A DNA stretch of 64,000 nucleotides from positions 1 through 64,000 of IMG/VR virus record IMGVR_UViG_3300025732_000020; one strand, written 5' to 3'. The position numbers and the translations under genes were made by a program. This document shows positions 9,492 to 59,002 of the stretch, piece by piece. The stretch's first letter is position 1, and each line of letters begins with the position of its first letter. A model generated the notes under the pieces. The model did not search any database, was not told where the DNA came from, and was given only the letters and a program-made list of their open reading frames with translations. The DNA is from a virus.

Positions 9492-9496
9492 TTATC

Positions 9497-9559: not shown

Positions 9560-9588
9560 AAATAAAAAAAAATGCTCTACTAAAATTA

Positions 9589-31884: not shown

Positions 31885-31892
31885 CTTTAAAC
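31885..31892 (-). promoter_or_regulatory. GTTTAAAG element before the connector genes
   Basis: On the - strand GTTTAAAG is followed by CTATATATAG and lies 24 nt before the gp36-like ATG. It restarts transcription just after the capsid terminator. Confidence 0.5.
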
Positions 31893-31910
31893 TTGGGGGG
31901 ATAAACACAT

Positions 31911-31938
31911 AAAAAAAAAGAGGCCCGGTTGGGGCCTC
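31911..31938 (-). terminator. Strong terminator after the major capsid gene
   Basis: Perfect 7-bp stem GAGGCCC/GGGCCTC, 5-nt loop, nine T on the - strand. It would limit read-through from the highly expressed capsid gene into connector genes. Confidence 0.92.
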
Positions 31939-31960
31939 AGAAGAAATAAGTGAGTTAGGC

Positions 31961-32944
31961 TCAGGCAACGGGGTTGTTGAAGATGAAGCCAGAACCGCAC
32001 TTGCCGTTTTCGCCCATGCCGACGAGCTCGAAGCTACGCTCAACAAGGATGTCACCGGTGAATACTCTACGCTCAATATTGAAACGCTCAGGAGTGGCGA
32101 TAGGATAGCCACTGAGAGTATAGGTGTAGGCGAAAGCAGGGTTGCCATAGTTGGCATCAAGAGCAGGCATGAAGCCATCGGTAGCTCCTGAAGGATGGTA
32201 GAAGAGAACAGCAACGTTGTTGTAGATGTTCTCAAGATTTCCTGTGGCAGGATCAAGCTTGAGTCTACGGGCAACGCGGATCTCATCAAGACCAAAGATC
32301 TGAGCCAGGGTCTTCTCATCCACGAGTACGCCACGCTGCATGAAGTCACGGATACGCTTGTTACGCTTAAGGGCATTAAAGGCGTCAGGTGAGATCACCA
32401 TCTTGTTAGGATAGATACCGATCTGTGAGCGAACTTGCTCCTTGGCATTATCCATGAGGACCTCAACGTCAGCAGTTGGGCTGTTGAACCGGTCAGCACC
32501 ACCGTTGTAGGTGGAGAGATCGAGAACGTTATCATTCTCATACTGGGCAGAATCGGTTACGATGTCAGCAACCTGAACTTCCCATGACTGCATGAGGCGG
32601 TTAGCAGCGTCTTTAGCAGCAAACTGACGAAGGTCAATTTGAGCAGCGCCGTTCTTGGCTTCAGCAGCGACTTCCTCGGCGATTTCCCAGCTGATCGCTT
32701 CCTGACGGAGAGCGAACGAACGGGTTCCGAACTCGTTCTGGATCTTCTGGATGTTAGTTCCAGGAGCGCGAAGGAACGACTGAGCCGCAAAAGCCTCCTT
32801 ACCAAAAACGAGTGTACGTCCGGCTCTGGTATTCATAGATACCGAAGGAGCGAAGAATGTAGCCACACCTTCGGCATTCTTATAGCCTTGGGCGAGTTGC
32901 GTAAGAATAGGGTCAATTACGCGTACCTGATCAAGATTCATCAT
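31961..32944 (-). CDS. Major capsid protein (HK97-fold, GpE/Mu-T-like)
   Basis: 327 residues. The pattern is that of HK97-fold capsid proteins. The N-terminal arm has DPILTQLAQGYKNAEGVATF, and the E-loop region has RAPGTNIQKIQNEFGTRSFAL with basic and aromatic residues. A long spine helix follows (QIDLRQFAAKDAANRLMQSW), then the P-domain (RSQIGIYPNKMVISPDAFNA, DFMQRGVLVDEKTLAQIFGL). A-domain strands end in RRVFTGDILVERSFELVG. A strong Shine-Dalgarno (AAGGAGAG) and an own terminator indicate high expression. GC content and codon use are more host-like than neighbouring genes, as usual for highly expressed proteins. Decoration and protease genes lie just upstream. Confidence 0.85.
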   Translation of the reverse strand: MMNLDQVRVIDPILTQLAQGYKNAEGVATFFAPSVSMNTRAGRTLVFGKEAFAAQSFLRAPGTNIQKIQNEFGTRSFALRQEAISWEIAEEVAAEAKNGAAQIDLRQFAAKDAANRLMQSWEVQVADIVTDSAQYENDNVLDLSTYNGGADRFNSPTADVEVLMDNAKEQVRSQIGIYPNKMVISPDAFNALKRNKRIRDFMQRGVLVDEKTLAQIFGLDEIRVARRLKLDPATGNLENIYNNVAVLFYHPSGATDGFMPALDANYGNPAFAYTYTLSGYPIATPERFNIERRVFTGDILVERSFELVGMGENGKCGSGFIFNNPVA

Positions 32945-32969
32945 AGTTAATTACTCTCCTTTATATCTA

Positions 32970-33461
32970 TCAAGCACCAGCTTCGTTACCGAGCTTAACA
33001 CGGATATACTGACCAGCGGTAGTGGCAGCAGAGGTGTCAAGAGCACGACCAAGAACAACACCAGCACCGGCAGCCTTAGTGGCGGTTCCAGTTGTTGTGG
33101 CATATACAGCGTCGTCTACACTGAAGGCAGCGGCAGCTGCATCAACTTCAACGATAGCAATACCGGAGGTAACAATCGAAAGAAGACCTTGGTATGGGAA
33201 TACGCTGGTCTTGAAGGGGGTTGTGGAAGGATTGAGTTGACCTTCGTAAACGAGAGTCGAACCATCATCAACCTGATAGCCCTTAGCGGTGAGTTCACCT
33301 TGGCCAGGGGCAGCATAAACGCTAACGCCAGCGGCATAAGCACCGGCAGCGGGATAAGCACCATTACGCTTTACAAATCTGTGGGCCTCAACAGCGTTGG
33401 TTGACTGCACAGTTTCAACGTACTGGTGGTCAAAAGACATATAACGTGGGTCAGTTGCCAT
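32970..33461 (-). CDS. Capsid decoration-like protein (DUF2190 type)
   Basis: A 163-residue, Ala/Gly/Thr-rich beta protein. The end AGAGVVLGRALDTSAATTAGQYIRVKL matches the DUF2190 family of capsid-associated proteins in Mu-like and other phages; VDDAVYATTTGTAT and GVSVYAAPGQGELTA are also typical. AAGGAG lies upstream. Its place directly before the major capsid gene fits a decoration or stabilising role. Confidence 0.72.
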   Translation of the reverse strand: MATDPRYMSFDHQYVETVQSTNAVEAHRFVKRNGAYPAAGAYAAGVSVYAAPGQGELTAKGYQVDDGSTLVYEGQLNPSTTPFKTSVFPYQGLLSIVTSGIAIVEVDAAAAAFSVDDAVYATTTGTATKAAGAGVVLGRALDTSAATTAGQYIRVKLGNEAGA

Positions 33462-33475
33462 TTTTAGTTTACTCC

Positions 33476-35410
33476 TTATGAGTTATTTGAGATAATTGCC
33501 TTCAGAGCGATGGTATATTCAACTCCTTTACTTTCAGCATACTCCAACGCCTGAACGTGGAGGTCTGCTGTAGAGGGGTCGTAGATATACCCATCGGCTG
33601 ATGGCGAGATTGACTTCTTAGCTGCTGGAGCCGAAGCCTGGGTTGCAAATTCTTCAAAACTGACCATTGAGGGTAGGTTCTCAAGGACATTCTTAAAGAA
33701 GTCAAATTGGGAAGTCTTACCTGACTCGGAGAAGTTCACGGAGTTCTTATTATTAAGGGTTTCCATGAAACGAACGAGGTCAGTCTTAGGAACGATTTGC
33801 TGAGTTAGCTTACCGCCCTCATAGAGAGTTTCACAGAAATCAGAGATCTCCTTCTCTCTCATCAACTTCTTCTGTCTGGAGAGTTCTTCCTCCAATTCGG
33901 CTACCCGAGCTTGTAAATCGCTCTGAACTCCCATAGCACGCTCGCTATGATCCAGAGTTCCTGTAGCCTCTTCAGTGGTGGTCTCTTCTGCCATATCGCT
34001 CTTTTCTTTCTCTTCTTCGTCCTCTTCGTTATCTTCGCATCCTTCAGCGTTATCAGAAACCTCAGTTTCCTCTTCACCATAAGCCTGCTCTCCCTTGGGT
34101 TCTTCAGCTCCCTTTACTTCCTCGGAAGTGGGATGTTCAGCTTCCGAAGGCTTTTCACCTTCTTTCACTGCTTCGCCCATGTCTTCAGTCTTCTCTTCTT
34201 CGTCCTCTTCTCCCTCTTCTTCACCCTTCTTAGCTTCGATCGCTTTCTTAAGTCCTTCGGGCATTTCGCCATAGGACATTCCATTCTCACCTTCCATCAT
34301 GGAAGCCGCATCGGTTTTTAGAGCTAGAGCCTTGATTAACTCATCAATTTCGTATTCTGAGGCGAGTTGAGCAATCTTTTGATCGTCGTCCTGCATGTCT
34401 CCAGACACATCGTCTGTTTCCATATCAGAACCATCATCTCCACCTTCTGAAGAAGGCCCAGCAGGAGGCATATCGTTGCCATCACCGCCATCTGTGTCTG
34501 GGGCACCGTCGGTACTATCAGCGCCATCTGCGTCTGCAGTAGGATCAGCATCGGCATCGATGTTATCACTACCATCACCACCGTCATCTGTTGGCATGTC
34601 AGAATCACTATCCATGTCAGAAGGCATATCGCCATCTTCAGGGGCATCATCTGCCATTTCCATCATCGGATCAGCAGGAGGCATTTCTGCATCCATGCCA
34701 TATTCCATTTCATAATCGGCTGGAGCGCCAGTTTCTGAAACTTTATTTCCGCTATCGTCATATACATTGGCGCCGGATTTACCACCACCGCCAATATTGA
34801 TATTAACAGTCATTCCCCCTTCGGAGTGTTCGATCACCGAAGCAGGAGTTTCTGTTTTGGTTTTTTTCCTAGCCATAGTTTGATTTTTTCCTAAGTGTTC
34901 TTTAAACGAAATAGAAGACTCCCCTTCGGAGGGGGTAAAAGTGATAGTCTCTGACTCAGAGATTTCAGAAAAAGCGGTTAGCCCTTTAACCGCTGGGATT
35001 GATACCAATCCAAGATGACGAAGGGCTAAATTTCCTGGTGTTGGATTCGTTTCCGCCTCTGGTAAGTAAAAGGAACTACTTACTTTCTTAAAAACTCCAT
35101 CTCGTATTAACTGTTCGGCCTTAGGGGTAAGTTCAACCTTACCCCAAAGTTCTTTGCCTTTTCTCCAGACTTTACGTACCCACCCAAGAGCTGGGGTTCC
35201 GTCGTCTTGGTCATGGCCAATAATTAACGGAGCCTCATGAGTATTTGGATTGTAGGTTTTAACGACCTGCTCCAGATCATTCTCAGTAAAGACCATTTTT
35301 TGGCCAGTAGAGGAAATCTGAGGACCCGCTCTGAACATCTCAATAAAAACAACCTTTTTAGGCTGTTGAGATGAAAGAGGCTCTTTAGTATTGAGTACGT
35401 GTTCTTTCAT
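33476..35410 (-). CDS. Mu GpI-like capsid protease/scaffold fusion
   Basis: 644 residues. The first 155 resemble phage Mu protease I: HEAPLIIGHDQDDGTPALGW, WGKVELTPKAEQLIRDG, SSSFYLPE and RHLGLVSIPAVKGL. Then comes a very acidic, low-complexity domain of about 300 residues (Asp/Gly/Glu/Ser), a charged coiled coil (VAELEEELSRQKKLMREKE) and a C-terminal segment typical of scaffolds. In Mu, protease I and scaffold Z are read from one frame with an internal start. Here ATG 34876 (MARKKTK) could serve that purpose. The gene lies between sheath and decoration genes. Confidence 0.78.
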   Translation of the reverse strand: MKEHVLNTKEPLSSQQPKKVVFIEMFRAGPQISSTGQKMVFTENDLEQVVKTYNPNTHEAPLIIGHDQDDGTPALGWVRKVWRKGKELWGKVELTPKAEQLIRDGVFKKVSSSFYLPEAETNPTPGNLALRHLGLVSIPAVKGLTAFSEISESETITFTPSEGESSISFKEHLGKNQTMARKKTKTETPASVIEHSEGGMTVNINIGGGGKSGANVYDDSGNKVSETGAPADYEMEYGMDAEMPPADPMMEMADDAPEDGDMPSDMDSDSDMPTDDGGDGSDNIDADADPTADADGADSTDGAPDTDGGDGNDMPPAGPSSEGGDDGSDMETDDVSGDMQDDDQKIAQLASEYEIDELIKALALKTDAASMMEGENGMSYGEMPEGLKKAIEAKKGEEEGEEDEEEKTEDMGEAVKEGEKPSEAEHPTSEEVKGAEEPKGEQAYGEEETEVSDNAEGCEDNEEDEEEKEKSDMAEETTTEEATGTLDHSERAMGVQSDLQARVAELEEELSRQKKLMREKEISDFCETLYEGGKLTQQIVPKTDLVRFMETLNNKNSVNFSESGKTSQFDFFKNVLENLPSMVSFEEFATQASAPAAKKSISPSADGYIYDPSTADLHVQALEYAESKGVEYTIALKAIISNNS

Positions 35411-35413
35411 TTA

Positions 35414-38047
35414 TCAGAATACGTTTGTAGTATTGAGAAGATTACTAAATCTCTCTTCATTTCTGGAGAACGAGTCACTCAACTGAACTACCTGTCCAGC
35501 TGGCGTTCTTACGACAGTAACAAGTAGACGCTCAAGGGTTGGACTTGTTGCCACGTAAACATCTAGTCTTACTGTTCCTTGCTCAAGGGTTAGACTGTCG
35601 TTATTAGCCGATGAACAGACTACTAAATAAGCCTGTTCTGGTCTTGCTCCAAAGAGAGCTCCTTGACGGAAGAATTGTCCACACACCTGAGAGGCAATAG
35701 ACTTAACTCTAGCGTATACTGTGCCAGCGGAATCGATTTGTTCAAACAGGATATCATCAAAACTACGGCCTAGAACATCAACTAAAACGTTGAGGATTAC
35801 GCGAGTATTGATAAACTTAAACAGAGGATTACTAGAGAGAGTTCTAGCGCCCCAAGTTACAATGCCACGATTAGGAAGTGAACGGATTGGGTTCAGACCA
35901 AGTGCATAAGTAACTTCTTGTTGTTGAGCAGAGATATCAAATCTAAGACCATTAGCACCGCGTAGTGGATAACGGGCGCCAGCTGGAGGCTGTTGGAAAC
36001 CTTCATTGATATATCTTGAGCAAGCAATACCAGCTACATATCCAGAAGGAGCAACATAACGATCGTCAAGATTCCTCACATATGGAGCGTAGTATGCGGC
36101 ATGGCCATAAGGCACTCCGACTGTACTCTTAAGAAGATCCAACTCATCTTGGACATCTCCAAGTGAAGTTTCATCAGCACCACAATCGATTAGAGCCACA
36201 TGCTGAGTAGCAGTGATTCCTTCGGTCGTTCCAATTCTGCCTTCAGCGGCACGAATTAGAGTCTGTGTAATCTTTAACCTTTCTTGACGAGCTTCGGAAG
36301 CACTTGCAAAGTCTCCTGTTCCTGCTTCATAGGTTAGTACTGAGTAAGCCTCTGGGGCAAATAGGAATCCAGGGGCGAGTGCTCCTGAACCTACTCCTTG
36401 CTCAATTGCATATACAAAGTCACTAGCTTTTGCAGTAGCGGAAACTTTATAAGAATCATAAGTAGCGTTCTGATCAGTGGAGATTAGTTTTACTACATTA
36501 GGATCAGAGATACCGGAACGATTGAGTCCTGGGTATACTGGCGAACTTACGCCGTTCTTAGAGGTAATCTTTACTCTTAGAACATAATCATGCGAGTAGA
36601 AGCCATTAGCTGTAGCTTTATCATCTTGAGTTGCTCCTTCATCCAACTCAGAAAGTTCTGGGCGGATATAAGGATTACCCACTACTGAGACTAGATCGCT
36701 GGTCGTAGATAGTCCGTTATTTGGGATATACTTGGTGGCTGAAAGTTTACCAGCATCAGAGTCAGAAACTAGAGCCTCTACTGAGTAAAAATCAATTAGA
36801 TCTTTTTCAGTAAGAATAGCTTTGATTTCAGTCTCTAGCCCAGTTGCCAATTCTTCAGGAGTTGCTCCATTGACAATAATGGCTCTGTTTTCACCAGCCA
36901 CATTGACATAGAACACCTGAACGGAATCAGGAAGATATCCTGTACGTGTAACAGGGTTTCCGCTTGGTACTACTGGATTGATTCCATCTACAACCTTCGA
37001 GAAGTTGCCAGAATTTGAGTCATACTGCCAATAAACTGCATCGGCATCAGCCCATTTATCAGTATTTGTACTAAGATCTTTTGAAATAGCTACATACTTA
37101 TTATCTGGGATATTTCCTGTTGTATAGATCTTTTGATTATTTAGGAAAGCCTTTAGGATAGCAGATTGCTCAGTTGTGATATCAGTATAAGTACTTTGTG
37201 CAGCGAAGAAAGAACTTAGTTGTGCTCCAGAGAGGTGAAGAATACCCTCTTTAGTTTCTTGATCGCGGGATACGCAGCGGAAGTTAATTTCCTTGATGGA
37301 AGTATAGAATGATACAACTCCGGGCTCTTGGAGAAGGTCGATTTTTTGAGCATATTCAGAGAGATTGAACTTATAAGCATGAAGTTCTTGAATCTCTGGG
37401 ACTCTACGAGAATCTTTTGAGAAAATTCTGAATTTGCCAGCTAATGCCTCAGTAGCACTCTGCTCGATTTTATAATAATCAGCAAACCCGTCACCATTAC
37501 CAGAAAGGAATGTGTATATATCTCTGGCGTTATCAGTTTTATCTAGTCCGGTGGTTGTGATAACTTTGATTTCAGTATTATCCGCATCATAGATGCCGAT
37601 AGGGGTACCGAAATATCTACCGTTTACTTTAATAGCAAATGCATTGTACCCAGTATCAGCAGAAGATTCACTAAGATTAACTACAGTTTCTGGGGTAGGA
37701 GTTACTCTGGTAAAGTAAAGAATACCATTTACTCCAACGTTATCAAAAAATGCTTTAATACTATCGTAACTAGCAAGAGCCCCTTTATTACCTACTGGAA
37801 TACTATTAAGTCCAATTTTATCCAGATAGTCATCTACAGATGCAATCTGAGTCGGTTTATAAGGTTCTAGATACGAGTAAGTATCAGTAGCATCTTTTCC
37901 ATAATAATCTTCAGCGGGAGTACTGCCAAAGATATACCCTACTGCGTGCGTTGCAATAGGTTGCGGAAGAGAGCCAGTTGTTGTTTGTGTAACAAAGACT
38001 CCCGGCCTATTCAATGACGCGGCATTGATTCTAATAGGATTGGCCAT
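35414..38047 (-). CDS. Contractile tail sheath protein
   Basis: 877 residues; this protein shows that the phage is a myovirus. It starts with the typical sheath N-terminus (ASLNRPGVFVTQTTTGSLPQ), and its last 250 residues have the conserved sheath core (GARTLSSNPLFKFINTRVIL, RSFDDILFEQID, GQFFRQGALFG). The C-terminal arm EQGTVRLDVYVATSPTLERL follows. It is longer than Mu gpL (about 495) or T4 gp18 (659), because the middle holds extra domains that would be surface-exposed on the tail. Operon order places it after putative tail chaperones. Confidence 0.9.
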   Translation of the reverse strand: MANPIRINAASLNRPGVFVTQTTTGSLPQPIATHAVGYIFGSTPAEDYYGKDATDTYSYLEPYKPTQIASVDDYLDKIGLNSIPVGNKGALASYDSIKAFFDNVGVNGILYFTRVTPTPETVVNLSESSADTGYNAFAIKVNGRYFGTPIGIYDADNTEIKVITTTGLDKTDNARDIYTFLSGNGDGFADYYKIEQSATEALAGKFRIFSKDSRRVPEIQELHAYKFNLSEYAQKIDLLQEPGVVSFYTSIKEINFRCVSRDQETKEGILHLSGAQLSSFFAAQSTYTDITTEQSAILKAFLNNQKIYTTGNIPDNKYVAISKDLSTNTDKWADADAVYWQYDSNSGNFSKVVDGINPVVPSGNPVTRTGYLPDSVQVFYVNVAGENRAIIVNGATPEELATGLETEIKAILTEKDLIDFYSVEALVSDSDAGKLSATKYIPNNGLSTTSDLVSVVGNPYIRPELSELDEGATQDDKATANGFYSHDYVLRVKITSKNGVSSPVYPGLNRSGISDPNVVKLISTDQNATYDSYKVSATAKASDFVYAIEQGVGSGALAPGFLFAPEAYSVLTYEAGTGDFASASEARQERLKITQTLIRAAEGRIGTTEGITATQHVALIDCGADETSLGDVQDELDLLKSTVGVPYGHAAYYAPYVRNLDDRYVAPSGYVAGIACSRYINEGFQQPPAGARYPLRGANGLRFDISAQQQEVTYALGLNPIRSLPNRGIVTWGARTLSSNPLFKFINTRVILNVLVDVLGRSFDDILFEQIDSAGTVYARVKSIASQVCGQFFRQGALFGARPEQAYLVVCSSANNDSLTLEQGTVRLDVYVATSPTLERLLVTVVRTPAGQVVQLSDSFSRNEERFSNLLNTTNVF

Positions 38048-38110
38048 AAGGAAATGAAGACACTATATCTTTCACTATTATCCTTAAACAAATAAGGTAT
38101 TTTGACTTGT

Positions 38111-38353
38111 TTATATAATTACGTCTTTTTTATAAAGAAGAAATAACTCGTTCATGAGCCAATCTGGACAGGAACTAACACCACATCTCTTAAACTCAAG
38201 GAGTTTCATTGATTTTCTTAAAATCTTATTAAAATCATTTGTATCTACGTATCTTGCACAAACTTTCACAAAAGACTTTAACTCTATTTGATCTTGTTCT
38301 ATACAAATAGAACATAAGATAAGGATAAGTTTTAATTTATCTGAGTCAGTCAT
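38111..38353 (-). CDS. Hypothetical 80-residue protein
   Basis: Helical, Leu/Cys-rich (KLKLILILCSICIEQDQIELK, NKILRKSMKLLEFKRCG). It overlaps the upstream gene's stop by 8 nt and precedes the sheath gene. Probably a small tail-assembly factor; function not known. Confidence 0.6.
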   Translation of the reverse strand: MTDSDKLKLILILCSICIEQDQIELKSFVKVCARYVDTNDFNKILRKSMKLLEFKRCGVSSCPDWLMNELFLLYKKDVII

Positions 38354-38795
38354 TAGGTTTCATTGAGTCTATTGCTTCTTTGTGGATTTGAGTCATAGCA
38401 ATAAATTTCGTCATAGGAACTTTTTCCATTTCTAGCACATTCGCAAATGACCCATTCTGTATTCCATAACAGGCTTTTAACCAGGAATATTTAGATATAT
38501 AGTTGCATAGGATATTATCCCTAATGCAGTTAAAAACCTTGATTATAGTTTTTTGAGTAAAAGACCCAGAACTTATCCCATCTAGATTTAAATAATCTAT
38601 GATGTTCTGAATATTTTCAAATGAAACTCTTTTTTGTCCTTCTTTTAAATTCTCATCTTTATCGCCTAAAATAACATCAAGATATTCTAAATCTTCTCCT
38701 GTTATATCTCTGAATTTGATCTCTCTTCCCTTTCTGTCTTTTATTGTTATTGTATAGTTATGATTACGAATTACTTCGAACTCATCATTCTCCAT
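38346..38795 (-). CDS. Putative tail assembly protein, 149 residues
   Basis: Begins with a beta part (YTITIKDRKGREIKFRDITG) and continues helical, with SWLKACYGIQNGSF near residue 107 and a last segment MTKFIAMTQIHKEAID. The KFRDITGEDLEYLD opening and the position between a chaperone-like gene and the sheath are reminiscent of baseplate or tail assembly proteins of myoviruses. Assignment is by context mainly. Confidence 0.5.
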   Translation of the reverse strand: MENDEFEVIRNHNYTITIKDRKGREIKFRDITGEDLEYLDVILGDKDENLKEGQKRVSFENIQNIIDYLNLDGISSGSFTQKTIIKVFNCIRDNILCNYISKYSWLKACYGIQNGSFANVLEMEKVPMTKFIAMTQIHKEAIDSMKPND

Positions 38796-39135: not shown

Positions 39136-39157
39136 TGCGTTTATATAGTGTCTCTTT

Positions 39158-39179
39158 CTTTAAACCCCTTTGTTTAAAT
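39158..39179. promoter_or_regulatory. Divergent GTTTAAA elements between two operons
   Basis: On the - strand GTTTAAAG (39165-39158) lies 22 nt before ATG 39135. On the + strand GTTTAAAT (39172-39179) is 9 nt before ATG 39189. The two sites point away from each other, as expected of divergent promoters. Confidence 0.5.
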
Positions 39180-39188
39180 TTAAGATAG

Positions 39189-39815: not shown

Positions 39816-39861
39816 ACCGATCCAACTCAGAGTTTAATATATAGTTAGAGATACTCTTCCC

Positions 39862-41298: not shown

Positions 41299-41343
41299 TA
41301 AATACATACTTATTAGTTGAATAAGTAATATCACTAATAAGTA

Positions 41344-41556: not shown

Positions 41557-41578
41557 TCACCTATATAGGTAAATAAGC

Positions 41579-42736
41579 ATGGCAGCACCGGTCCTAAAAA
41601 TTCGTCGCTCGAGCGTTCAGGGGAGCGCTCCTACCACCACGCAGTTGTCTCTGGGGGAGCTGGCGATAAACACTTACGATGGCAGGCTGTTTTTTAAGAA
41701 AGACGTAACAGGCACTGAGACTGTTATGGAAACGGTTACGACTACTGATAGTCAGACCTTAACTAACAAGACTCTTACATCTCCAACTTTAACAACTCCT
41801 GCGCTTGGAGTTGCCACTGGTTCCTCATTAAGTTTAAATGGAACTGCAACTGATACACTAAGATTATCTGCAACTCCACCCGGAACGAACAGTAACACTG
41901 GATTTGTTGCAATCGGTCCAACTCTAACATTCAACGACACAAATAAAATTGCAACCTTTGTAAGTGATGCTAATAATTATGTGCAAGTTATTCTTCAAAA
42001 CAAAAACACGGGCGGTGCTGCATCTACAGACTTCATTGTAAATAACGATAGAATTGGTGGTACTAGTATCTACGGAGACTTTGGTATTAACTCGTCTGGA
42101 TATGCAACTCCTGGATTGTTTGGTGATATTGACGGTACATATTTATATGCTGCAGGTGGTACTCTTGCAATAGGTACTTTAGGGTCATTTGATTTTAAAA
42201 TTGGAACAAATAATACTACTGTATTAACTATGACTGCTGCCGGTAATACAACTATTACTGGTAATACGACCTTAACACTTGCTAATGCTCTTACGGCTTC
42301 AACAGGTCTATCACTTGACACCGGAACAACTTATGATGCTTCTGCTGCCAGAACACTTACAGTAAGCACCAACACAAGAACAAGAACAATCAACGTCATT
42401 ATCGATGGTGGTGGTGCTGTTATAACTACTGGCGTAAAGGCTGACGTTGTTGTTGACTTTAACGCAACTATTGTTTCTTATGATATTCTTGGGGATGGTA
42501 CTGGAAACTTAACTGTTGATGTCTCAAAGGCATCTTATGCCAACTTCCCAGGAACTTTTACTGCATCTGGTGGTACATCACCAGCATTATCAGGAGCACA
42601 AAAGAACCAAGCAAATATCAACTGGACGAACTTTACAACTATCACTGCTGGGGATATTTTAAGATTCACTGTCAGTGGCACACCAACAGTAATCACCCGA
42701 GCAACTCTGGCAATTTTAATAACAACCAGTTCATGA
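41579..42736 (+). CDS. Tail fibre-like protein, 385 residues
   Basis: N-terminus APVLKIRRSSVQGSAPTTTQ and LGELAINTYDGRLFFKKD is a common phage fibre opening, followed by TLTNKTLTSPTLTTPALGVA repeats. The middle has Thr/Gly/Ala-rich strands, and the last 100 residues form a distinct domain. A separate fibre from its upstream neighbour. Confidence 0.75.
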   Translation: MAAPVLKIRRSSVQGSAPTTTQLSLGELAINTYDGRLFFKKDVTGTETVMETVTTTDSQTLTNKTLTSPTLTTPALGVATGSSLSLNGTATDTLRLSATPPGTNSNTGFVAIGPTLTFNDTNKIATFVSDANNYVQVILQNKNTGGAASTDFIVNNDRIGGTSIYGDFGINSSGYATPGLFGDIDGTYLYAAGGTLAIGTLGSFDFKIGTNNTTVLTMTAAGNTTITGNTTLTLANALTASTGLSLDTGTTYDASAARTLTVSTNTRTRTINVIIDGGGAVITTGVKADVVVDFNATIVSYDILGDGTGNLTVDVSKASYANFPGTFTASGGTSPALSGAQKNQANINWTNFTTITAGDILRFTVSGTPTVITRATLAILITTSS

Positions 42737-42748
42737 TAGAATGATACT

Positions 42749-43710: not shown

Positions 43711-43733
43711 TGGGTATCTCTATCGCGTATTCG

Positions 43734-43741
43734 GTTTAAAG
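43734..43741 (+). promoter_or_regulatory. GTTTAAAG element (with tandem GTTTAAA)
   Basis: GTTTAAAG is followed immediately by another TTTAAA (from 43742). The ATG at 43759 is 17 nt downstream. Confidence 0.45.
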
Positions 43742-43758
43742 TTTAAAAAAATTACACA

Positions 43759-44246: not shown

Positions 44247-44252
44247 TATAAT
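44244..44252 (+). promoter_or_regulatory. Extended -10 promoter element before the deaminase
   Basis: TGATATAAT, identical to the site at 3774, lies 21 nt upstream of the dCMP deaminase start; no -35. Confidence 0.5.
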
Positions 44253-44273
44253 GGTATCAGAGATAACAATGTT

Positions 44274-51100: not shown

Positions 51101-51981
51101 ACAACAGTAGGGTCTGAATATTCTTCTATTTTTGAATCTGATATAACCGAGTTGATATCAAATCCATTTTCCAAAAATCCATTATAATACTGCCTAACGT
51201 TTTTTTCAAAAACTTCTTTAAATTTTGCTGCTCGATTAAGTCTTTTGGAGACATACTTACTCCATTGGCTAGATTCAAAAAAATCTCTAGTCGGAGACCC
51301 GACGTCTGGATTTAATTTATAGAGATCTCCATTATATATAATTAAGTCTCTGTATGAAATTGATAATCTATATTCAGACTTGCCTATCTTTGAAGCTACT
51401 CTATTGTAACTTAATGGAGAATAAGATGAGGTATTAGATAGACTTTGAAACTCCTCCCAATATCTGCTTTGTGGAAAAAGAGTGTAAACTGTCTTTGAGT
51501 AATTATTTACCTCCTTTACAGAATAAATAAATTTATCTTCAGAGTATTGATATTCAGGCGCAGTCTGTAATACATCAAAAACTGTTGAAGAGAAAAAATC
51601 TTCGTTAATTATAAATTTAGTTATAATCTCCTTATACTGCTTAATTTTTAGTAAGAAAATTGAGTAATTTTCGGAGTAGTTTTTAGCGTACTTACTAAGT
51701 ACTGCAACAACCTCATCGTATATTTCTATTGGATATACTTCATCGACTCCTATTTCTAATATGGATTCAGTGATTATCTGCTTAAACGGACTTATAGATA
51801 CTGACTCATTATTTTCTAATCTGTTAAATATCTCTAAAAATAACTTTAGTGTAGAGTCTTTTAACTTTTTTCTTAGTAAATCAGTATTAATTTTTTTATA
51901 TTTTTTCTCATACGAAATGAACCCCTCCAAAATGATGGGAGAGAGTACCGGTCTTAATATTTCTACGAGATTTTGGCTCAT
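48097..51981 (-). CDS. Very large presumed virion protein, 1294 residues
   Basis: The largest gene in the window and first of its leftward operon. It is Ser/Asn/Ile/Tyr-rich, mostly helical in the first 1000 residues with no transmembrane segments or enzyme motifs that I can recognise. The last 100 residues have several Cys (VSCQRFGGKECTDIYGN, CATFKSPFEYQMCMNIVKCK). No other tape-measure candidate is visible, but its helices lack the regular hydrophobic repeats of typical tape measures, so a baseplate or tail-tip protein is equally likely. Two tandem GTTTAAA sites precede it. Confidence 0.65.
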   Translation of the reverse strand: MSQNLVEILRPVLSPIILEGFISYEKKYKKINTDLLRKKLKDSTLKLFLEIFNRLENNESVSISPFKQIITESILEIGVDEVYPIEIYDEVVAVLSKYAKNYSENYSIFLLKIKQYKEIITKFIINEDFFSSTVFDVLQTAPEYQYSEDKFIYSVKEVNNYSKTVYTLFPQSRYWEEFQSLSNTSSYSPLSYNRVASKIGKSEYRLSISYRDLIIYNGDLYKLNPDVGSPTRDFFESSQWSKYVSKRLNRAAKFKEVFEKNVRQYYNGFLENGFDINSVISDSKIEEYSDPTVVNEELLTVTFGGEGKSILQGINSLKIFSDYIGSYEGSIIGGIQYISKYSQYLFGAAYGRLNSDVFATINNESSFGKFDVLFAGATSLNKIPGLNFLNSFLKLKSFIHGQKVPDDTFIENKTLTYNSIYAQFKDGLKDRYTAEIKANSYTIPPSVDLLSSAINTLYSRCLYLGDLVQSMLSSLDLTGKLPGSEGLGSIEPQLKELQRVFPPSPYMESLREGPKPGMSGVIKFIKESYDQLYSTFIYTQLPGNPLEFLLKITAAVNDQINGIYESISRLSISSFEYIPNISNISFQGQNTVLISFLRSLGFSESEINKVISINNFSDLITSFAPISNSDDLKSFFKGFELSQLIYQIGGQDGIDAYLSFLYSVSDVDGLLNILSLAQKDPSKATYINISKYPRLIGLLIGLTYAIDPNQIIKFTKILGQNNLTLLESIAYLFQSGQENIIKSKDEINLLSGIIDQIIQGNYQDGLMSPSLDYAQTNSLAPIALKEWTEVIGDNLGNISSEKLINALYDKAVGLTPKELITLLGETSPTTALGQILDGFNGGNFTKFIQYANLTGLGIRLGTYKNSQQLNNFKLQSDPLQSNILTLLEGFESISKSLRIVENVLKSSLDYSSLTVLSNKFKALINSQNKSFDTLNQTVIDILSSSDDNPELAITAGNSPIVESPGIGNSRLPNRIPIVNSITPEQYRVLFNTPINNVNFTEVIKQSPEIIINNFFKISEENKLANLISNTYETGSNPNTQVVDTKAWSPSSEYETIPMSINIPKMEYMTPPLYKEAGEVPEIENSILGVSYIPKKEIMANLPQEILKVFDPIVSCQRFGGKECTDIYGNLADRCVPSINKSLYPEEYKTVPGTSVGSISVDRPLGSFLEFKPSESLVPTSSFSSPPAYVSLLENKINGFGEKGEPILKGISSTPIKFSYGGGEVSEFNNTEFAIIEGIKAKLEKSSEFDCATFKSPFEYQMCMNIVKCKKFATPSNGKYYLDFCPRTLSGGRLK

Positions 51982-52002
51982 CAATTTAGATGCTTTTTTA
52001 AA

Positions 52003-52023
52003 CTTTAAACTTTAAGTTTAAAG
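52003..52023. promoter_or_regulatory. Back-to-back GTTTAAAG elements in a divergent promoter region
   Basis: On the - strand GTTTAAAG (52010-52003), followed by a second GTTTAAA, lies about 21 nt before ATG 51981. On the + strand GTTTAAAG (52016-52023) lies 22 nt before ATG 52046. The mirror arrangement in a 64-nt intergenic region is the best single piece of evidence for the motif being a promoter. Confidence 0.6.
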
Positions 52024-52045
52024 CTATTGGACTTAAATTGATCCA

Positions 52046-52495: not shown

Positions 52496-53450
52496 TATCG
52501 CTTCAGAATTAAAAGGCGAGTCGGCTTATGAGATAATCTTAAATAAGTTAATAGATTACGATCGTTGGAAAACTGAAGCGACATTTGCTCATGAATTAAA
52601 ATTAGAAGAACTGAGACTTAATGCCTCGTCTTCACGTCGGTCATCTTTGGTAAAACTTGATTCTGAATTTTCAGAAGAAGATAAAAAATTTAATATCCTC
52701 AGCTCATATGGAGCCTGTACTGAAAAGCATCTTGGGATGATATCCAAGACAAGAATTTGGGAAGGTGCTACTGAACAAGCAACTAAACTCTTTGAGAGTT
52801 GGTATTTTCATATAAGAGAGAATAACGTTCTACCACTCAAGGATTTAAAAGAAGGGCGGATTAAAATGCTTCTTCTTTTATTCCTTTGGGCGTCTGGATG
52901 TTCTCATAGGGCTGCAAAATGGCCAGATGCCCCCGATATTAATTATGTTACTCCATTGAAAAAAGAAATGGAGGAAAGACTTTCTAAGTTTAGTAAGCAT
53001 AGTATTGTTGCTGCTTATGAGTCGTTAAAAGTTTTTTGGAAAGAGATTAATGATTATGAGCAATGTCCGTTCAATGTTACCCTCATTGGAGAAGTTCTAG
53101 ATGAAGCATACACGTATGTCTCTGAAAAGACTACCGAAGAAAATAAATATGATATTAAAAACTCGCCGTTATTCTCAGAATTTGAAAAAACCTTCCCTTA
53201 TGTTTCTTTGGAGATTTTGGAAAAGTATTATACGAAAAACCGTAGAAACTTTGTAGCCGCTGGCGTGGGGGCTTTGAGAAAAGTCTTTACTACAACTCTC
53301 CCAGAGGAACTAGAACATAAGTATTCTATCTCTGAATGGCCAAAGAAGTGGCATCTTCATATCGCTACTTTTGAAGAAAAGTGGCAAAAACAACTTTATG
53401 ACATTATGAACTCTACCCGTGAGGAACAAGAAAAATGGAAAAAGGAGTAA
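52485..53450 (+). CDS. Hypothetical 321-residue protein upstream of the portal
   Basis: No good ATG near the 5' end; TTG 52485 with GGAAG upstream is my choice (TTG 52473 or 52443 are possible). All-helical, Glu/Lys/Trp-rich, with ASGCSHRAAKWPDAPDINYV in the middle. It does not show the Walker motifs or nuclease residues of a large terminase. Being next to the portal, a packaging or head-assembly role is possible but unproven. Confidence 0.58.
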   Translation, partial: QLLSIASELKGESAYEIILNKLIDYDRWKTEATFAHELKLEELRLNASSSRRSSLVKLDSEFSEEDKKFNILSSYGACTEKHLGMISKTRIWEGATEQATKLFESWYFHIRENNVLPLKDLKEGRIKMLLLLFLWASGCSHRAAKWPDAPDINYVTPLKKEMEERLSKFSKHSIVAAYESLKVFWKEINDYEQCPFNVTLIGEVLDEAYTYVSEKTTEENKYDIKNSPLFSEFEKTFPYVSLEILEKYYTKNRRNFVAAGVGALRKVFTTTLPEELEHKYSISEWPKKWHLHIATFEEKWQKQLYDIMNSTREEQEKWKKE

Positions 53451-53626
53451 ATGTTTTAACTGCAGGACAGAATGTAATTGTCGATGGTGCCGAAGAGGCA
53501 ATCGAACGCTATGAAAAAGGAGAGATTACAGCCGAAGAGCTCCGTGATATTATCCTTACTCTTGATGTAGTCTATATCGATCAGTCTAAGTTTAAAGATA
53601 AAAAAGATAATGAATCCCTAGAGTAG
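53435..53626 (+). CDS. Hypothetical acidic 63-residue protein
   Basis: Helical (EEAIERYEKGEITAEELRDI) and acidic. It overlaps the upstream gene by 16 nt and precedes the portal by 8 nt. Function unknown. Confidence 0.6.
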   Translation: MEKGVNVLTAGQNVIVDGAEEAIERYEKGEITAEELRDIILTLDVVYIDQSKFKDKKDNESLE

Positions 53627-53634
53627 GTAAAAGA

Positions 53635-55578
53635 ATGGCAGACGATCGCCCTTCGATAATGAAACCCAAAACAGGATATTATGACAGATACTTCGGTCTA
53701 GGAGTAGGTCAGGGCGGTCTTGCTGGGTACAAAGCAGATCCTTACGCATTTGCGGGTAATGGATATATCACAGGTGGTACGATCCTTCCTCGTCGTGATG
53801 ATATCCTTATTGAGGAAGGTGGTGGTGGGCCTCGAGCAATCGAGAAATATATGCGGCTGTTCAATGACAGCCAAACTATATCCGCATGGGAGAAGTTAAC
53901 AGGAGAGATTATCCAGCGTAAATGGGAAGTAGATCCTGCTAGTCCCTCAGACCGCGATGAGGAAGTAGCAGAGTTTGTCCGTCAGGTACTCTACCGTATG
54001 GGGACAAATACTCGCCAAGCATATGGTAAAGAAATGCTGGTGAGTTCTAACTCGGCATTTGATACTTTCATCAGAGGACTGTGTGAATCACTGATTCTGG
54101 GGATCAGTATTGGTGAGATTTGCTGGATGAGACAAGGAAACTATATCGTCCCGTCCGAGATTAAAATTCGTGATCCAAGAAGGTTTCTTTTTGTTCTCAA
54201 TGAGGATGGTACCATCTCCCCGCGCCTACTCACAGTAGAGAGTTCCGTAGAAGGCATTCCTCTGCCCCTCCGTTCTATGATTATCCATAGGCACTGGTGC
54301 TACAGTAACTTTATGGATCCTTACGGTACGGGTCTTGGTCGCCAGCTCTATAGCCTTGTAGAATTCAGACGGACGTTAATGTCTTTCTGGTTACAATACG
54401 CTGATAAGCATACCACCCCCACCGCAGTGGGTAAGTTCTCTCTTGGCACACCTGAGGATGAAGTAAATGCTTTATTTACTGCTCTTCAACGCCTGGGTCA
54501 AGAAACCGCGATCGTTGTCCCCGATGAGATGGATATTAGTTGGTTAGAAAGCCAAGGCCGCTCAGAGGTATATGAGAAGTTGATCGAATATGTTGATCAA
54601 CAGATCAGTTTTGTGATTAATGGGGAGAACACTGTTGGTCAAGAGACCGGCAATGTTGGGTCGTATGCCAGAGATCAAGTTTCGGATTCTGTTCGGATGC
54701 GCAAGGCTAAAGCGTTCTCTGAGGAACTTGATGAGACACTCAATGCTACTTTGATCCGTTGGATTGTTGAACTTAACTATCCAGGTGCTCCTGTTCCTAG
54801 ACTTCGTAGGAATTTTGATGATCTGGAGCAGAGAGAGGACCCAGTTAAGATTGTTCAAATGCTTACCCAACTTCAAGCTATTGGGTACGAGGTCAAGGAT
54901 CTTGATTGGGTAAGAGACAAACTCGAGATCCCGTCTCTAGGCAAAATGGACATGGGTGCTATGGGTGGTGGAATGCCTGGTGCTCCTGGAGCAATGCCAC
55001 CTGGCCCCGATCAAGCCCCAATGGCAGAGGATAAAAACCCAGAAGATGTGGAAAATGGGTCAATGGGTGCATTTGGAGCCGATCCAACTTCTCATCTTGA
55101 TCTATTTGATTTTTCAGAGTTCGATGAGGAAAATGATCTCGCGGATAAGACTCAGAAGGACAAAGTAGCTAAGATTATCGCTTCTAAGTTCGATGGAGGA
55201 CTTGATGATATTGGATTCCAGAGAATTGTTTCCACAGGAAACTCTGAGACTGATGCATCTAACTCGCGTCTCCGTATCGATGAGTATACTTCGCCTGGCG
55301 AAATTGCTCATGTGGCTAGAAGAATCATCGAAGAAATCAAAAAAGTTCCATATATCTCCCCAGAAGACTCAGTGATGAGCAGTTCTTTTGATATGGAACT
55401 TGCGAGTATTGAAAGTCAGATCAGAGTAGATAGGATCAGTGAATGTGATATCCAAAAACTTATTGATCTCTATAAAAAGATTTATCGTCTCAATCGCAGA
55501 GCAGTCTATAAAGAGTGTGTGGTGGTAGATTGCCAAAAAGCTGGTTATATGAAGTATTTTGCTCCGTACTTTATGTAA
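53635..55578 (+). CDS. Portal protein (DUF935, Mu gp29-like)
   Basis: 647 residues. The family signatures of the Mu-type portal are clear: RAIEKYMRLFNDSQTISAWE near 75 and RKWEVDPAS. Others are HRHWCYSNFMDPYGTGLGRQ and YADKHTTPTAVGKFSLG, then YEKLIEYVDQQISFVINGEN and SYARDQVSDSVRMRKAKAFS. A Met/Gly/Pro-rich linker (about 440-475) leads to an additional acidic and helical C-terminal domain of about 150 residues not present in Mu gp29. It forms the dodecameric DNA gate at the capsid vertex. The terminase is not in this window. Confidence 0.88.
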   Translation: MADDRPSIMKPKTGYYDRYFGLGVGQGGLAGYKADPYAFAGNGYITGGTILPRRDDILIEEGGGGPRAIEKYMRLFNDSQTISAWEKLTGEIIQRKWEVDPASPSDRDEEVAEFVRQVLYRMGTNTRQAYGKEMLVSSNSAFDTFIRGLCESLILGISIGEICWMRQGNYIVPSEIKIRDPRRFLFVLNEDGTISPRLLTVESSVEGIPLPLRSMIIHRHWCYSNFMDPYGTGLGRQLYSLVEFRRTLMSFWLQYADKHTTPTAVGKFSLGTPEDEVNALFTALQRLGQETAIVVPDEMDISWLESQGRSEVYEKLIEYVDQQISFVINGENTVGQETGNVGSYARDQVSDSVRMRKAKAFSEELDETLNATLIRWIVELNYPGAPVPRLRRNFDDLEQREDPVKIVQMLTQLQAIGYEVKDLDWVRDKLEIPSLGKMDMGAMGGGMPGAPGAMPPGPDQAPMAEDKNPEDVENGSMGAFGADPTSHLDLFDFSEFDEENDLADKTQKDKVAKIIASKFDGGLDDIGFQRIVSTGNSETDASNSRLRIDEYTSPGEIAHVARRIIEEIKKVPYISPEDSVMSSSFDMELASIESQIRVDRISECDIQKLIDLYKKIYRLNRRAVYKECVVVDCQKAGYMKYFAPYFM

Positions 55579-55627
55579 TATGGCTTAGTTTAAATATACA
55601 TTAGATATAACGTTTAGTTATCCCATC

Positions 55628-56056
55628 ATGCTAAATTATAAGCCCGTAGCTCAATCACAATTTTGGATTCAGGCTTCTCCATTCGCACATTATTTTACAA
55701 ATTTTAGTGGAATTAGAGACACAGCCGGAACATCTCAATATGCCGATGGCGTAAGAGGCCGTATCTTCAATATCCGTGGTCCTCGTACTCTTTCAGAAGT
55801 AACTATCTCGGTTCCTTTCGATCCTGAGAAGCACGCGGATGTAGTCGACTTCTGGAAAGCTTACGGTTGTGAGTTTGTAACTCTAACCATTACTCCTGTC
55901 TCCTGTGGCGAAGATCCTCAACCCCTTGGTCAACGTACTATCACTATTCCTGATGCTCAAATGACGGGCCTTAATTTTGGTACCGCCGATCGTACTTCTT
56001 CAAATGTTTCCACTATTGAACTAACGTTCGTAATGGATACATTTACCTACAACTGA
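55628..56056 (+). CDS. Probable tail tube protein, 142 residues
   Basis: A 142-residue beta-rich protein with strands SEVTISVPFDPEKHADVVDF, CEFVTLTITPVSC and RTITIPDAQMTGLNF. It ends STIELTFVMDTFTYN. The size and beta-sandwich pattern fit myovirus tail tubes (Mu gpM is about 118, T4 gp19 163). It stands alone with its own 49-nt leader after the portal, consistent with separate high expression. No direct motif proves it. Confidence 0.55.
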   Translation: MLNYKPVAQSQFWIQASPFAHYFTNFSGIRDTAGTSQYADGVRGRIFNIRGPRTLSEVTISVPFDPEKHADVVDFWKAYGCEFVTLTITPVSCGEDPQPLGQRTITIPDAQMTGLNFGTADRTSSNVSTIELTFVMDTFTYN

Positions 56057-56078
56057 TTCTTACTCACGAGGTTGAAGC

Positions 56079-57119
56079 ATGTCTCTTTCCAACCTCTATT
56101 TTAGGGGATGTTTTAATCAGCCTTCTCAAGAGCAAGTTGATGCTATTGAATCAATACCTAATGGAAATGTCGAAGGGACAGTAGTAGATAAGTCTTGTTT
56201 TAGAGAAGATCTAAATACTTGTGGGATTAGTATCCAAGATCTTTTTAATACATATTCTATTTATTCAGCTCAAAAGGGTTTGTATAAAAATTGGGGAGAT
56301 ATTAAGTTCCCTTGGAAGATTTTAACTACTACTCCTAATTTACTCATTAGTCAAACTAATGATAAGTGGGAGATAAGCACTTATAGGGAAGTTACTTCTT
56401 ATGAAGAAGGCGATAAAGTTCTTTATATAGAAAATGATGGATATGAAGTTTCTTTATATGAGGCTATTACAGATATACCGTCCTTACCTGGAATTTTCGA
56501 TCATTATAAATGGAATAAAAAGTGTAGTGTTAAAACGGTAAAACCCGTAGGTTTACCAACACTTGAGGAATTATATTCCCGCTATAAAGAATATGCCCTT
56601 GAAGTATATAATTCTGAGTGGGGTAATATTGAGATAGGTTGGTCCCAGCCTACTTCAGCACTTTGGAAGAATGCTCAGTCTAAAAGGAACAATTTTTATT
56701 TAAATGGAGATATCACTCTCGTAGAGCAAGAGTGTGGTGATATTGTATGTACATATATTGCTATCAGAGATATCCCAGTAAATGACTTTGTAATAGAAGA
56801 ATACGTAGGAAAAAAATTCTCACAGTCAATTTACTTATCTAAAGAAGATAAAGATTTAGGTGTATTAACTCCAGTTTGGGAAAAACTATATTGCGTACAA
56901 ACTCAAAGAAATAAATGTCTTGAATATCAAAGGAAAAAAGAACCAGAGCTAGGATATGATCTCTTGGAGATAGGATCACGTGGCCATTTTGTAGAAGTTC
57001 CTGTTCCATACAGACTACGTCCACCGGAGTCAACTCTTAATAGTAAAGCTGAGACAAAAGAACCTCCAAAAGTGTTAACTCAAGAGGAAATTGACTCCCT
57101 TCCAGAACCTAAGGAGTAA
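56079..57119 (+). CDS. Putative virion protein, 346 residues
   Basis: Tyr/Trp/Cys-rich protein with two related segments. YKNWGDIKFPWKI and YNSEWGNIEIGWS each follow a helix of the type LFNTYSIYSAQ or LYSRYKEYALE, suggesting an internal duplication. The tail is Pro/Glu-rich. Lies between tube and fibre genes; likely a tail or baseplate part. Confidence 0.62.
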   Translation: MSLSNLYFRGCFNQPSQEQVDAIESIPNGNVEGTVVDKSCFREDLNTCGISIQDLFNTYSIYSAQKGLYKNWGDIKFPWKILTTTPNLLISQTNDKWEISTYREVTSYEEGDKVLYIENDGYEVSLYEAITDIPSLPGIFDHYKWNKKCSVKTVKPVGLPTLEELYSRYKEYALEVYNSEWGNIEIGWSQPTSALWKNAQSKRNNFYLNGDITLVEQECGDIVCTYIAIRDIPVNDFVIEEYVGKKFSQSIYLSKEDKDLGVLTPVWEKLYCVQTQRNKCLEYQRKKEPELGYDLLEIGSRGHFVEVPVPYRLRPPESTLNSKAETKEPPKVLTQEEIDSLPEPKE

Positions 57120-57126
57120 TATACGT

Positions 57127-58077
57127 ATGGCAAAAGTATTTGGAGGAGGAGGAAGTTCGCTCCCCAGCGGAAGTAACGGAGCATCAAGTACCCTTGGAAG
57201 AGGAGGAAATTTTTCATCTGGAAGTAATAGAGTCACTGATAATACAAAAGTATTTGGAAGAACAAGTTCTCCACCGTGCTCCGATAGCGGAGTAAGTAAG
57301 ATTATTCCTACCTCTTCTGAAGCGTTAAGAACTGACCAAATTCAGTCTTTTTCTTCTTCTCCAAATTCTTATTCTAAAGGTCAGTCAGTAAGTGGCGATA
57401 TAAATGCTAAGGATTTTTACAATAAGTCCGAGATACAAAAACTTCTAAAAATTAAAGCTGATATTTCTTCCGTTTATACGAAAGATGAAACAGATGATGC
57501 TCTGACATCATTAGAGTTAAGAATTAACCAGTCCCTTATTGATTTTATTACTGAAGCTGAAGTAAATGCTAAAGTATCTGCTTCTTACGACAGTATCCTC
57601 TCATATCTTTCTCAAAATTATTATACTAATTCACAGACTTATTCTAAGAGTCAAGTAGATAGCCTTATCTCTTCACTTAGTCTAGAGGGTGATTTTCTAG
57701 TAAATCAACCTTCTACAACTGCTAGTAATACTATAAATCCTGGGGTTAATAACGCTATTCCTCTCACTCTTGTAGCTTCTACTAATCCGAGTGTTACTAC
57801 GATTCAAAATTGGGTAGATAATCAATCCAATCTAGTGGGAAGAATTAAGACCTCTGGCAGAGTCGAATTTTATCGAGATATGGTAATAGGACAAAATACC
57901 TCATTATCAAGTCCAGCTCTTGATGTTAGTAGCCGGAGAATTGCTAGTGTAGCTGATCCGATAAATCCTTCCGATGCGGTTAATAAGAATTATGTAGAAG
58001 GATATATTGCCGAGATTATTGATAATATAGTCCAAGGAGAAGATAAGAGTTATATCGTTGATGCATTGGTGTACTAA
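57127..58077 (+). CDS. Fibre-like protein with coiled coil, 316 residues
   Basis: Gly/Ser-rich N-terminus (KVFGGGGSSLPSGSNGASST). Then a repeated segment of the type YNKSEIQKLLKIKAD, YTKDETDDAL and YSKSQVDSLISSL follows. This Y-(S/T)-K-x-(E/Q) pattern is typical of trimeric phage fibres. It ends with a domain containing SRRIASVADPINPSDAVNKN, which is common in fibres as well. Start chosen at the ATG preceding the Gly-rich region. Confidence 0.73.
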   Translation: MAKVFGGGGSSLPSGSNGASSTLGRGGNFSSGSNRVTDNTKVFGRTSSPPCSDSGVSKIIPTSSEALRTDQIQSFSSSPNSYSKGQSVSGDINAKDFYNKSEIQKLLKIKADISSVYTKDETDDALTSLELRINQSLIDFITEAEVNAKVSASYDSILSYLSQNYYTNSQTYSKSQVDSLISSLSLEGDFLVNQPSTTASNTINPGVNNAIPLTLVASTNPSVTTIQNWVDNQSNLVGRIKTSGRVEFYRDMVIGQNTSLSSPALDVSSRRIASVADPINPSDAVNKNYVEGYIAEIIDNIVQGEDKSYIVDALVY

Positions 58078-58079
58078 TT

Positions 58080-59000
58080 ATGTCAGAATTAAGAGATAAA
58101 ATACTTTTACGTAGGTCTTCTCAGTTTTCAAAAAGACCTTCTCTTTTTGACATAGAGAATGGGGAACTAGCGCTCAACTTTAATAGCGAAGAGCCAGGTC
58201 TTTATTTTAAAGATTTTTCTGAATCGACAGGCACTCAATCTATTAGAAAAATAGGACCGCCTCATATGGGTCCTATACCTCCTAATAGTTTTGCGGAAGA
58301 ACTAGGATTTCCAGTTAAATTATCACATGCTGAAACTTGGATTGATACTAGTTTAGGACAAAACATAAGAATTTTAAGAGTATGGGATGATATAAGTAAT
58401 TCTTGGGAGGAAGTTTCAGGAGGAGGCGCCAAGTCGTATCTTTCATTAGATCAGTTTTTAGATGGATCCGATGGAAGCAATATAGTTCACACTGATGGTC
58501 TTAATTTAAAAATAAATAATAAAATTGCTTTATCTGGATATGCTACGACTACCGGTAATAAACTCGTAATCAACGAGGGCAGCGAATTTGCCAATGGAGT
58601 TGAATTACATGGCCCGAGTATACTAATAAAAAATCTTGAGTCGGATGCTAACCTTCAGATTCAAGTTGATACTTTAACTGTCCCAGAAAATGATTTTGTT
58701 CCGTTAGTAATAGGGGGGTTTGATCTTACATTTAGATCAGCTAAATTTATCATCCAGGTAGAGGGATTTACACAAAATAATGCGCAGCATGTTTACTATG
58801 TAATGGAGTCTCTTATCATCCATGACAATTTCAATGTTTTTATGACTCAGTATGGAATAGTTAGTACTATCAATAACGAAGTTCTTGGAAGTATTGATGC
58901 TTCGATACAGGGTGGGAAAGTAAAACTTACATTTCAAAGATTTCCAAATATTACTTCAGAAATAAAGGTAAGTACGACTTGCCAGTGCCTGTCGGTTTAA
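58080..59000 (+). CDS. Fibre-associated protein, 306 residues
   Basis: Opens LRDKILLRRSSQFSKRPSLF and NGELALNFNSEEPGLYFKDF, the same kind of attachment N-terminus as the other fibres here. The C-terminal 100 residues (PLVIGGFDLTFRSAKFIIQV, NAQHVYYVMESLIIHDNFNV) resemble the last domain of the 773-residue fibre next door (FRSAEYLVQITQGTEYQISK, ILLVHDGTNVYL). They may be a shared receptor-contact or trimer-capping domain. Confidence 0.72.
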   Translation: MSELRDKILLRRSSQFSKRPSLFDIENGELALNFNSEEPGLYFKDFSESTGTQSIRKIGPPHMGPIPPNSFAEELGFPVKLSHAETWIDTSLGQNIRILRVWDDISNSWEEVSGGGAKSYLSLDQFLDGSDGSNIVHTDGLNLKINNKIALSGYATTTGNKLVINEGSEFANGVELHGPSILIKNLESDANLQIQVDTLTVPENDFVPLVIGGFDLTFRSAKFIIQVEGFTQNNAQHVYYVMESLIIHDNFNVFMTQYGIVSTINNEVLGSIDASIQGGKVKLTFQRFPNITSEIKVSTTCQCLSV

Positions 59001-59002
59001 AG
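58995..59002 (+). promoter_or_regulatory. GTTTAAAG element before the large fibre gene
   Basis: The octamer overlaps the stop codon of the preceding gene and lies 34 nt before ATG 59037; a TATAAT stands directly before that ATG. Confidence 0.4.

Follow-up and report, generated by a model that had tools for sequence, protein, structure and literature searches.

The T4 late promoter, TATAAATA, works with gp55, gp33 and gp45, and the T4 late RNA polymerase has no equivalent of the sigma-4 domain (PMC2988020). The late promoters of the T4-like cyanophages S-PM2 and Syn9 have the form NATAAATA (PMC2984593), and Ma-LMM01, a cyanomyovirus that does not belong to the T4 core group and whose genes fall into temporal classes, lacks gp55 and gp33 homologues, its promoters being host-SigA-like in every class (PMC5780444). 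Here, we analysed the octamer GTTTAAAG in the first 64,000 bases (the window) of a 135,407-base IMG/VR virus record. We conclude that it is most probably a lineage-specific -10-type promoter recognised by host RNA polymerase when it carries a phage sigma factor; reading by this sigma and transcription start at the motif are deduced from the sequence, and expression is probably late, as judged from gene content. The element has in common with the T4 late system its 8-bp, -10-only form, a phage sigma (here the putative reader), virion genes as targets and the absence of a conserved -35, and it differs in sequence and in its sigma, which cannot be recognised as a gp55 homologue and is predicted to contain sigma-3 and sigma-4 domains. 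As in S-PM2 and Syn9, a phage sigma would read it as a late promoter of a cyanophage, but GTTTAAAG was not enriched over the reversed word in Syn9 (3 vs 7 copies) or P-SSM2 (7 vs 10); T4 contained 16 vs 12. The virus resembles Ma-LMM01 in being a cyanomyovirus outside the T4 core group and presumably in having temporal classes. Cyanobacterial SigF and the Bacillus SigB/SigF group-3 sigmas were the best family match of the phage sigma, far below the cut-off, and unlike SigF/SigB promoters the phage sites lack the pair of a -35 and a GGGTAT-type -10. The remark in the first-pass annotation that the sites resemble T4 late promoters but differ in sequence therefore holds: this is not the T4 gp55/TATAAATA system, since the sigma has no T4-like match at E 0.01 and NATAAATA occurs upstream of genes only slightly above expectation (3/50 in the present virus, 1.5 expected; 5/57 in S-TIM5, 2.3 expected). 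The gp45 profile PF02916 matched T4 only, a profile that also misses the T4-like cyanophage Syn9.

Judged by its proteins, the present virus is related to the S-TIM5 cyanophages (Synechococcus myoviruses, genus Aurunvirus). The S-TIM5 group was the closest, with 57% identity in the tail sheath, 62% in the DNA primase and 66% in the sigma factor, and shared the gene order sheath-protease-portal and the position of the sigma gene beside the terminase gene. Related sheath genes were found at no fewer than 79 loci in IMG/VR. A full-text literature search found no published account of the motif or of gene switching in TIM5-like phages; the S-TIM5 genome paper, reportedly Sabehi et al., PNAS 2012, was outside its scope. 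The window also encodes a protein of 293 aa containing an S-layer homology domain (PF00395; 5684-6565, + strand), possibly a phage-borne host-like outer-membrane protein, a DNA polymerase of family A whose exonuclease domain is of the mitochondrial type (PF18136, E 2e-55; 11571-14264, + strand) and ten tRNA genes among small ORFs (4440-10072, + strand), some of them close behind TGGTATAAT elements.

The window contained 14 copies of GTTTAAAG, as compared to a mean of 3.46 and a maximum of 9 in shuffled sequences (0 of 100 shuffles reached 14), and the whole record contained 29 copies vs 2 of the reversed word. All nine octamers listed by the first-pass annotation were found at their coordinates and strands, with distances to the ATG of 25, 34, 7, 24, 22, 17, 18/21, 22 and 34 nt; so were the variants GTTTAAAT at 39172 and 55588 and GTTTAATA at 39832, and the outward-pointing copies at both divergent regions, 39158(-)/39172(+) and 52003(-)/52016(+). 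The list had overlooked five further copies (53590, 34900, 3383, 9354 and 28825), among which 53590(+) and 34900-34907(-) look functional. The sites and associated features in window coordinates are:

3383 and 9354: GTTTAAAG, with no start codon close behind or only a distant one.
4602-4609, + strand: GTTTAAAG, 25 nt upstream of ATG 4635 (148 aa).
8028-8035, + strand: GTTTAAAG, 34 nt upstream of ATG 8070 (148 aa), directly behind a tRNA-Ser gene.
10103-10110, + strand: GTTTAAAG, 7 nt from the nearest ATG, 10118 (61 aa).
11537-11545, + strand: TGATAAAAT, a putative host-type extended -10 element, 25 nt upstream of the DNA polymerase gene; an example of the other promoter class.
28825-28832, + strand: GTTTAAAG, not followed within 60 nt by the start of a long ORF; the next ORF begins about 112 nt downstream.
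31885-31892, - strand: GTTTAAAG, TAGA 7 nt downstream, 24 nt upstream of ATG 31860 of a head-tail adaptor-like gene (264 aa).
33476-34876, - strand: predicted nested in-frame product of 466 aa, the C-terminal part of the 644-aa protease ORF 33476-35410.
34900-34907, - strand: GTTTAAAG within the head-maturation-protease ORF, 23 nt upstream of the in-frame ATG 34876.
38082-38089, - strand: variant GTTTAAGG, 34 nt upstream of the tail-sheath ATG 38047.
39158-39165, - strand: GTTTAAAG, 22 nt upstream of ATG 39135, left arm of a divergent pair.
39172-39179, + strand: GTTTAAAT, TAGA 6 nt downstream, right arm of the pair; the S-TIM5 equivalent is GTTTAAAG.
39832-39839, + strand: GTTTAATA, TAGA 6 nt downstream, 22 nt upstream of ATG 39862 (478 aa).
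43734-43741, + strand: GTTTAAAG, 17 nt upstream of ATG 43759.
52003-52010, - strand: GTTTAAAG, 18-21 nt upstream of the start (51981-51984) of a 1294-aa gene, left arm of a divergent pair.
52016-52023, + strand: GTTTAAAG, 22 nt upstream of ATG 52046, right arm of the pair.
53590-53597, + strand: GTTTAAAG, 37 nt upstream of the portal gene start 53635; orthologous S-TIM5 site at 58636.
55588-55595, + strand: GTTTAAAT, TAGA 6 nt downstream, 32 nt upstream of ATG 55628.
58995-59002, + strand: GTTTAAAG, 34 nt upstream of ATG 59037 of a virion structural gene (773 aa).

The octamer at 10103 lies only 7 nt from ATG 10118 and is doubtful as its promoter. Several sites are conserved: the 31885 site has an ortholog in S-TIM5 at 41616, the divergent pair 52003(-)/52016(+) has a counterpart at 57048-/57054+, and the tail-sheath site at 38082 corresponds to GTTTAAAG or GTTTAAGG in relatives and to GTTGAAAGCT in a sister clade. 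In S-TIM5, for which the annotation of the depositors, independent of the present analysis, was used, 22 of 36 copies of GTTTAAAG were fully intergenic and four more straddled a gene end, although intergenic DNA makes up 5% of the genome; the possibility that the motif is equally frequent inside genes, named at the outset as a test of the promoter reading, is thus contradicted. Among all 8-mers upstream of genes, GTTTAAAG ranked first both in S-TIM5 (25 of 36 copies, log10 p -26) and in the present virus (15 of 29 copies, log10 p -15), the latter numbers being rougher because the gene calls came from our own simple finder. In both genomes it was mostly located 18-30 nt ahead of gene starts. 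The most frequent variant of the octamer was GATTAAAG, with 8 of 16 copies upstream of genes. A surplus of GTTTAAAG was also detected in relatives of the present virus, two sister-clade contigs excepted, and was absent from S-CBWM1 (0 copies, reversed control 11). The Cylindrospermopsis phage Cr-LKS4 (14 copies, control 4) was considered as a second occurrence and rejected, most of its copies lying inside genes according to a reading of their coordinates.

The genes behind the octamer belong predominantly to one class. In S-TIM5, 18 of the 27 genes up to 90 nt downstream of GTTTAAAG were annotated as structural, vs 47 of 212 overall (p 9.5e-8); a few targets, e.g. PhoH and an alpha-glucosyltransferase, were not virion genes. 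Sixteen other S-TIM5 genes, among them those for topoisomerase, ribonucleotide reductase and thymidylate synthase, were preceded by the host-type extended -10 element TGNTATAAT; only one of the 16 was structural (annotated for packaging), and no S-TIM5 gene carried both elements upstream. Across the genomes of S-TIM5 and the present virus the TGNTATAAT class was observed ahead of replication, nucleotide and tRNA genes. The original statement that there is no matching TTGACA/TATAAT is correct for the octamer sites, whereas the phage has separate TGNTATAAT elements elsewhere.

A candidate reader is encoded beyond the window, at genome positions 96489-97274 (- strand) adjoining the terminase gene. 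Its product is a sigma-70-family protein that matched PHROG 351 (E 6e-17) and scored 24.1 bits for sigma region 2 (PF04542, Sigma70_r2; cut-off 24), with the S-TIM5 orthologue just under at 23.7 bits. The best NCBIfam match was SigF (PRK07408, E 1e-10), at 41.7 bits vs a cut-off of 261, and the orthologues in S-TIM5 (gp108) and S-TIM54 are annotated as sigma factor or SigF. The AlphaFold model, of modest confidence (pLDDT 67, pTM 0.41), contains domains 2 and 3 and a sigma-4-like C-terminal bundle; the predicted helices 165-229 occupy the sigma-4 position with pLDDT mostly 75-87, and PDB matches span 220-260 columns. The PDB matches listed for the predicted fold were sigma factors, except for a few composite crosslinking models whose titles name none. 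The protein is thus predicted to be a three-domain sigma-70-family factor of the SigF/SigB type. The suggestion to look for a gp55-like sigma was fruitful insofar as a sigma-70-family gene exists, but it is not a recognisable gp55 homologue: a tblastn search of 50,697 phage records (E 0.01) returned five TIM5-like and five weak other matches and no T4-like one. TGNTATAAT or a close form lies upstream of the sigma operon in 32 of 35 loci, in both clades, and exact GTTTAAAG or GTTGAAAG was found within 700 nt of it in 0 of 35. This is the wiring expected if host transcription makes the sigma, which then switches on a later class. The start of the sigma gene is overlapped by a small gene that weakly matches thioredoxin (L010:14271-14588, - strand), and the S-TIM5 sigma gene is also directly preceded by a small gene.

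Motif and sigma changed together in the sister clade (clade B; clade A contains the present virus). At the position orthologous to the sheath promoter clade B has GTTGAAAGCT, and its contigs contained 22, 31, 19, 15 and 10 copies of GTTGAAAGC with a reversed control of 0, as compared to 0-6 copies in each clade A contig. Upstream 8-mers were ranked in two sister genomes, and the first two places went to GTTGAAAG and TTGAAAGC, which is the former word shifted by one base. In the sigma-bearing loci the ratio of GTTTAAAG to GTTGAAAGC was 86:4 in clade A and 12:60 in clade B. The sister-clade sigma (three contigs holding the gene) was 39-42% identical to that of the present virus, as compared to 77-100% identity within the IMG/VR clade of the present virus, and in region 2.3-2.4 three alternate positions differ (NRCLQFH in clade A, NRSLTFQ in clade B), residues which may be tied to the T-to-G change in the motif. 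As there was one evolutionary split between the two clades, the co-change demonstrates an association and not a cause, and another diverged phage protein could read the motif. Taken together, positional enrichment, preference for structural genes, a sigma gene with a host-type element and the clade-wise motif switch with sigma divergence support the proposal of the first-pass annotation that the octamer is a promoter specific to the phage and dependent on a phage sigma.

Downstream of the octamer, TAG peaked 6 nt past GTTTAAAG (24 of 155 dereplicated sites, log10 p -11) and 5 nt past GTTGAAAGC in clade B (34 of 76 sites, 45%, log10 p -35), p-values which overstate certainty because sites in related contigs are not independent. 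The base 6 nt past the clade B octamer, after the T, was a purine in 96%. In ordinary sigma-70 promoters six bases separate the -10 element from a purine start at +1, and the T plus purine at fixed spacing fits a -10-type element and its start site. No conserved -35 column was present in the aligned sites of either clade. A free EM search for a second element returned only a weak, ill-placed motif, and the question was settled by fixed-offset counting. The distance from octamer to start codon had a median of 24-25 nt (range 17 to 59 nt), which gives a leader of about 17-18 nt, and few octamer sites have a recognisable Shine-Dalgarno sequence.

The copy at 34900-34907 lies inside the head-protease gene 33476-35410 (- strand), which likely carries a nested scaffold gene. 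All 36 clade A loci with a protease gene have kept the octamer and, 23 or 26 nt behind it, an in-frame start; the octamer was absent from the 12 clade B protease genes. The codons over the octamer were fixed as TCG TTT AAA in 29 of 29 tallied, with TCG being only 12% of nearby serine codons, a constraint that is suggestive because neighbouring codons are conserved too. A scaffold nested in the protease gene is a known arrangement (lambda C/Nu3); the prediction made here is that the nested putative scaffold protein has its own promoter, namely this octamer. For S-TIM5 the nested product is predicted at 424 aa.

The same observations bear on other readings of the motif. It is unlikely, though the most credible of these, that the octamer is the site of a MotA-like phage activator that brings host RNA polymerase, together with a host sigma, to a -10 close by. 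Activators, too, could place a fixed element ahead of a weak -10, and TAGA follows the octamer after 5-7 nt. However, no TANNNT is preserved at constant spacing (only 20% of clade B sites have T as the sixth base of the presumed -10), 5-6 nt is a very tight spacing for a separate activator plus a -10, hardly any leader would remain where the ATG follows at 17-22 nt, as many do, and the phage has a dedicated sigma gene. Less probable still is the reading in which the sigma-4 domain recognises the octamer as a -35 and a degenerate -10 follows it. The SigF/SigB-like (sub-threshold) sigma with its sigma-4-like domain would suit such a role, and the octamer contains GTTTAA, the -35 of Bacillus SigB promoters, but both clade logos lack a second element about 20 bp downstream, the sole second element being 5-7 nt away; in addition, the start would fall at or past many ATGs, and the purine peak is found where a -10 predicts the start.

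We regard it as very improbable that the motif acts in mRNA leaders as an RNA signal, i.e. a processing site or translation enhancer: its location shortly upstream of start codons and the few recognisable Shine-Dalgarno sequences would be compatible with this, whereas the variable distance to the start (17 to 59 nt), the divergent pairs standing back to back with few bases between, the copy inside a coding sequence and the strong preference for one gene class are not. A short promoter spanning about 16 bp, with its start at a set position, would suit a phage single-subunit RNA polymerase, and a divergent enzyme is conceivable; the chance of such a reader is minimal, as PF00940 had no match in the present virus, S-TIM5, S-TIM54 or the sister-clade genome, with 1e-109 for the T7 control.

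In the -10-type reading that we favour, GTTTAAAG would be the promoter core of S-TIM5-like cyanophages, placed at roughly -14 to -7 without a conserved -35, although the predicted sigma-4 domain could allow -35 contact. Transcription would start 5-7 nt past the octamer, within the TAG(A) stretch, and leave a leader that typically measures about 17 nt. The phage sigma would be made first from the host-type extended -10 promoter TGNTATAAT and would then steer host RNA polymerase to GTTTAAAG, chiefly ahead of virion genes, with one sigma-directed promoter nested inside the head-protease gene.

On balance we lean towards the view that a three-domain SigF-like sigma and a -10-only promoter co-diverged in one cyanophage group, one core base (GTTTAAAG to GTTGAAAGC) changing along with residues of region 2.3-2.4, so that the two clades would form a natural pair of mutually exclusive transcription systems. 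The two sigma/promoter pairs are test material for how sigma region 2 sets specificity, and possibly orthogonal expression parts for cyanobacteria. TIM5-like cyanophages are a little-studied group present in many metagenomes, and with a named promoter and sigma their operons and expression classes would become readable straight from contigs.
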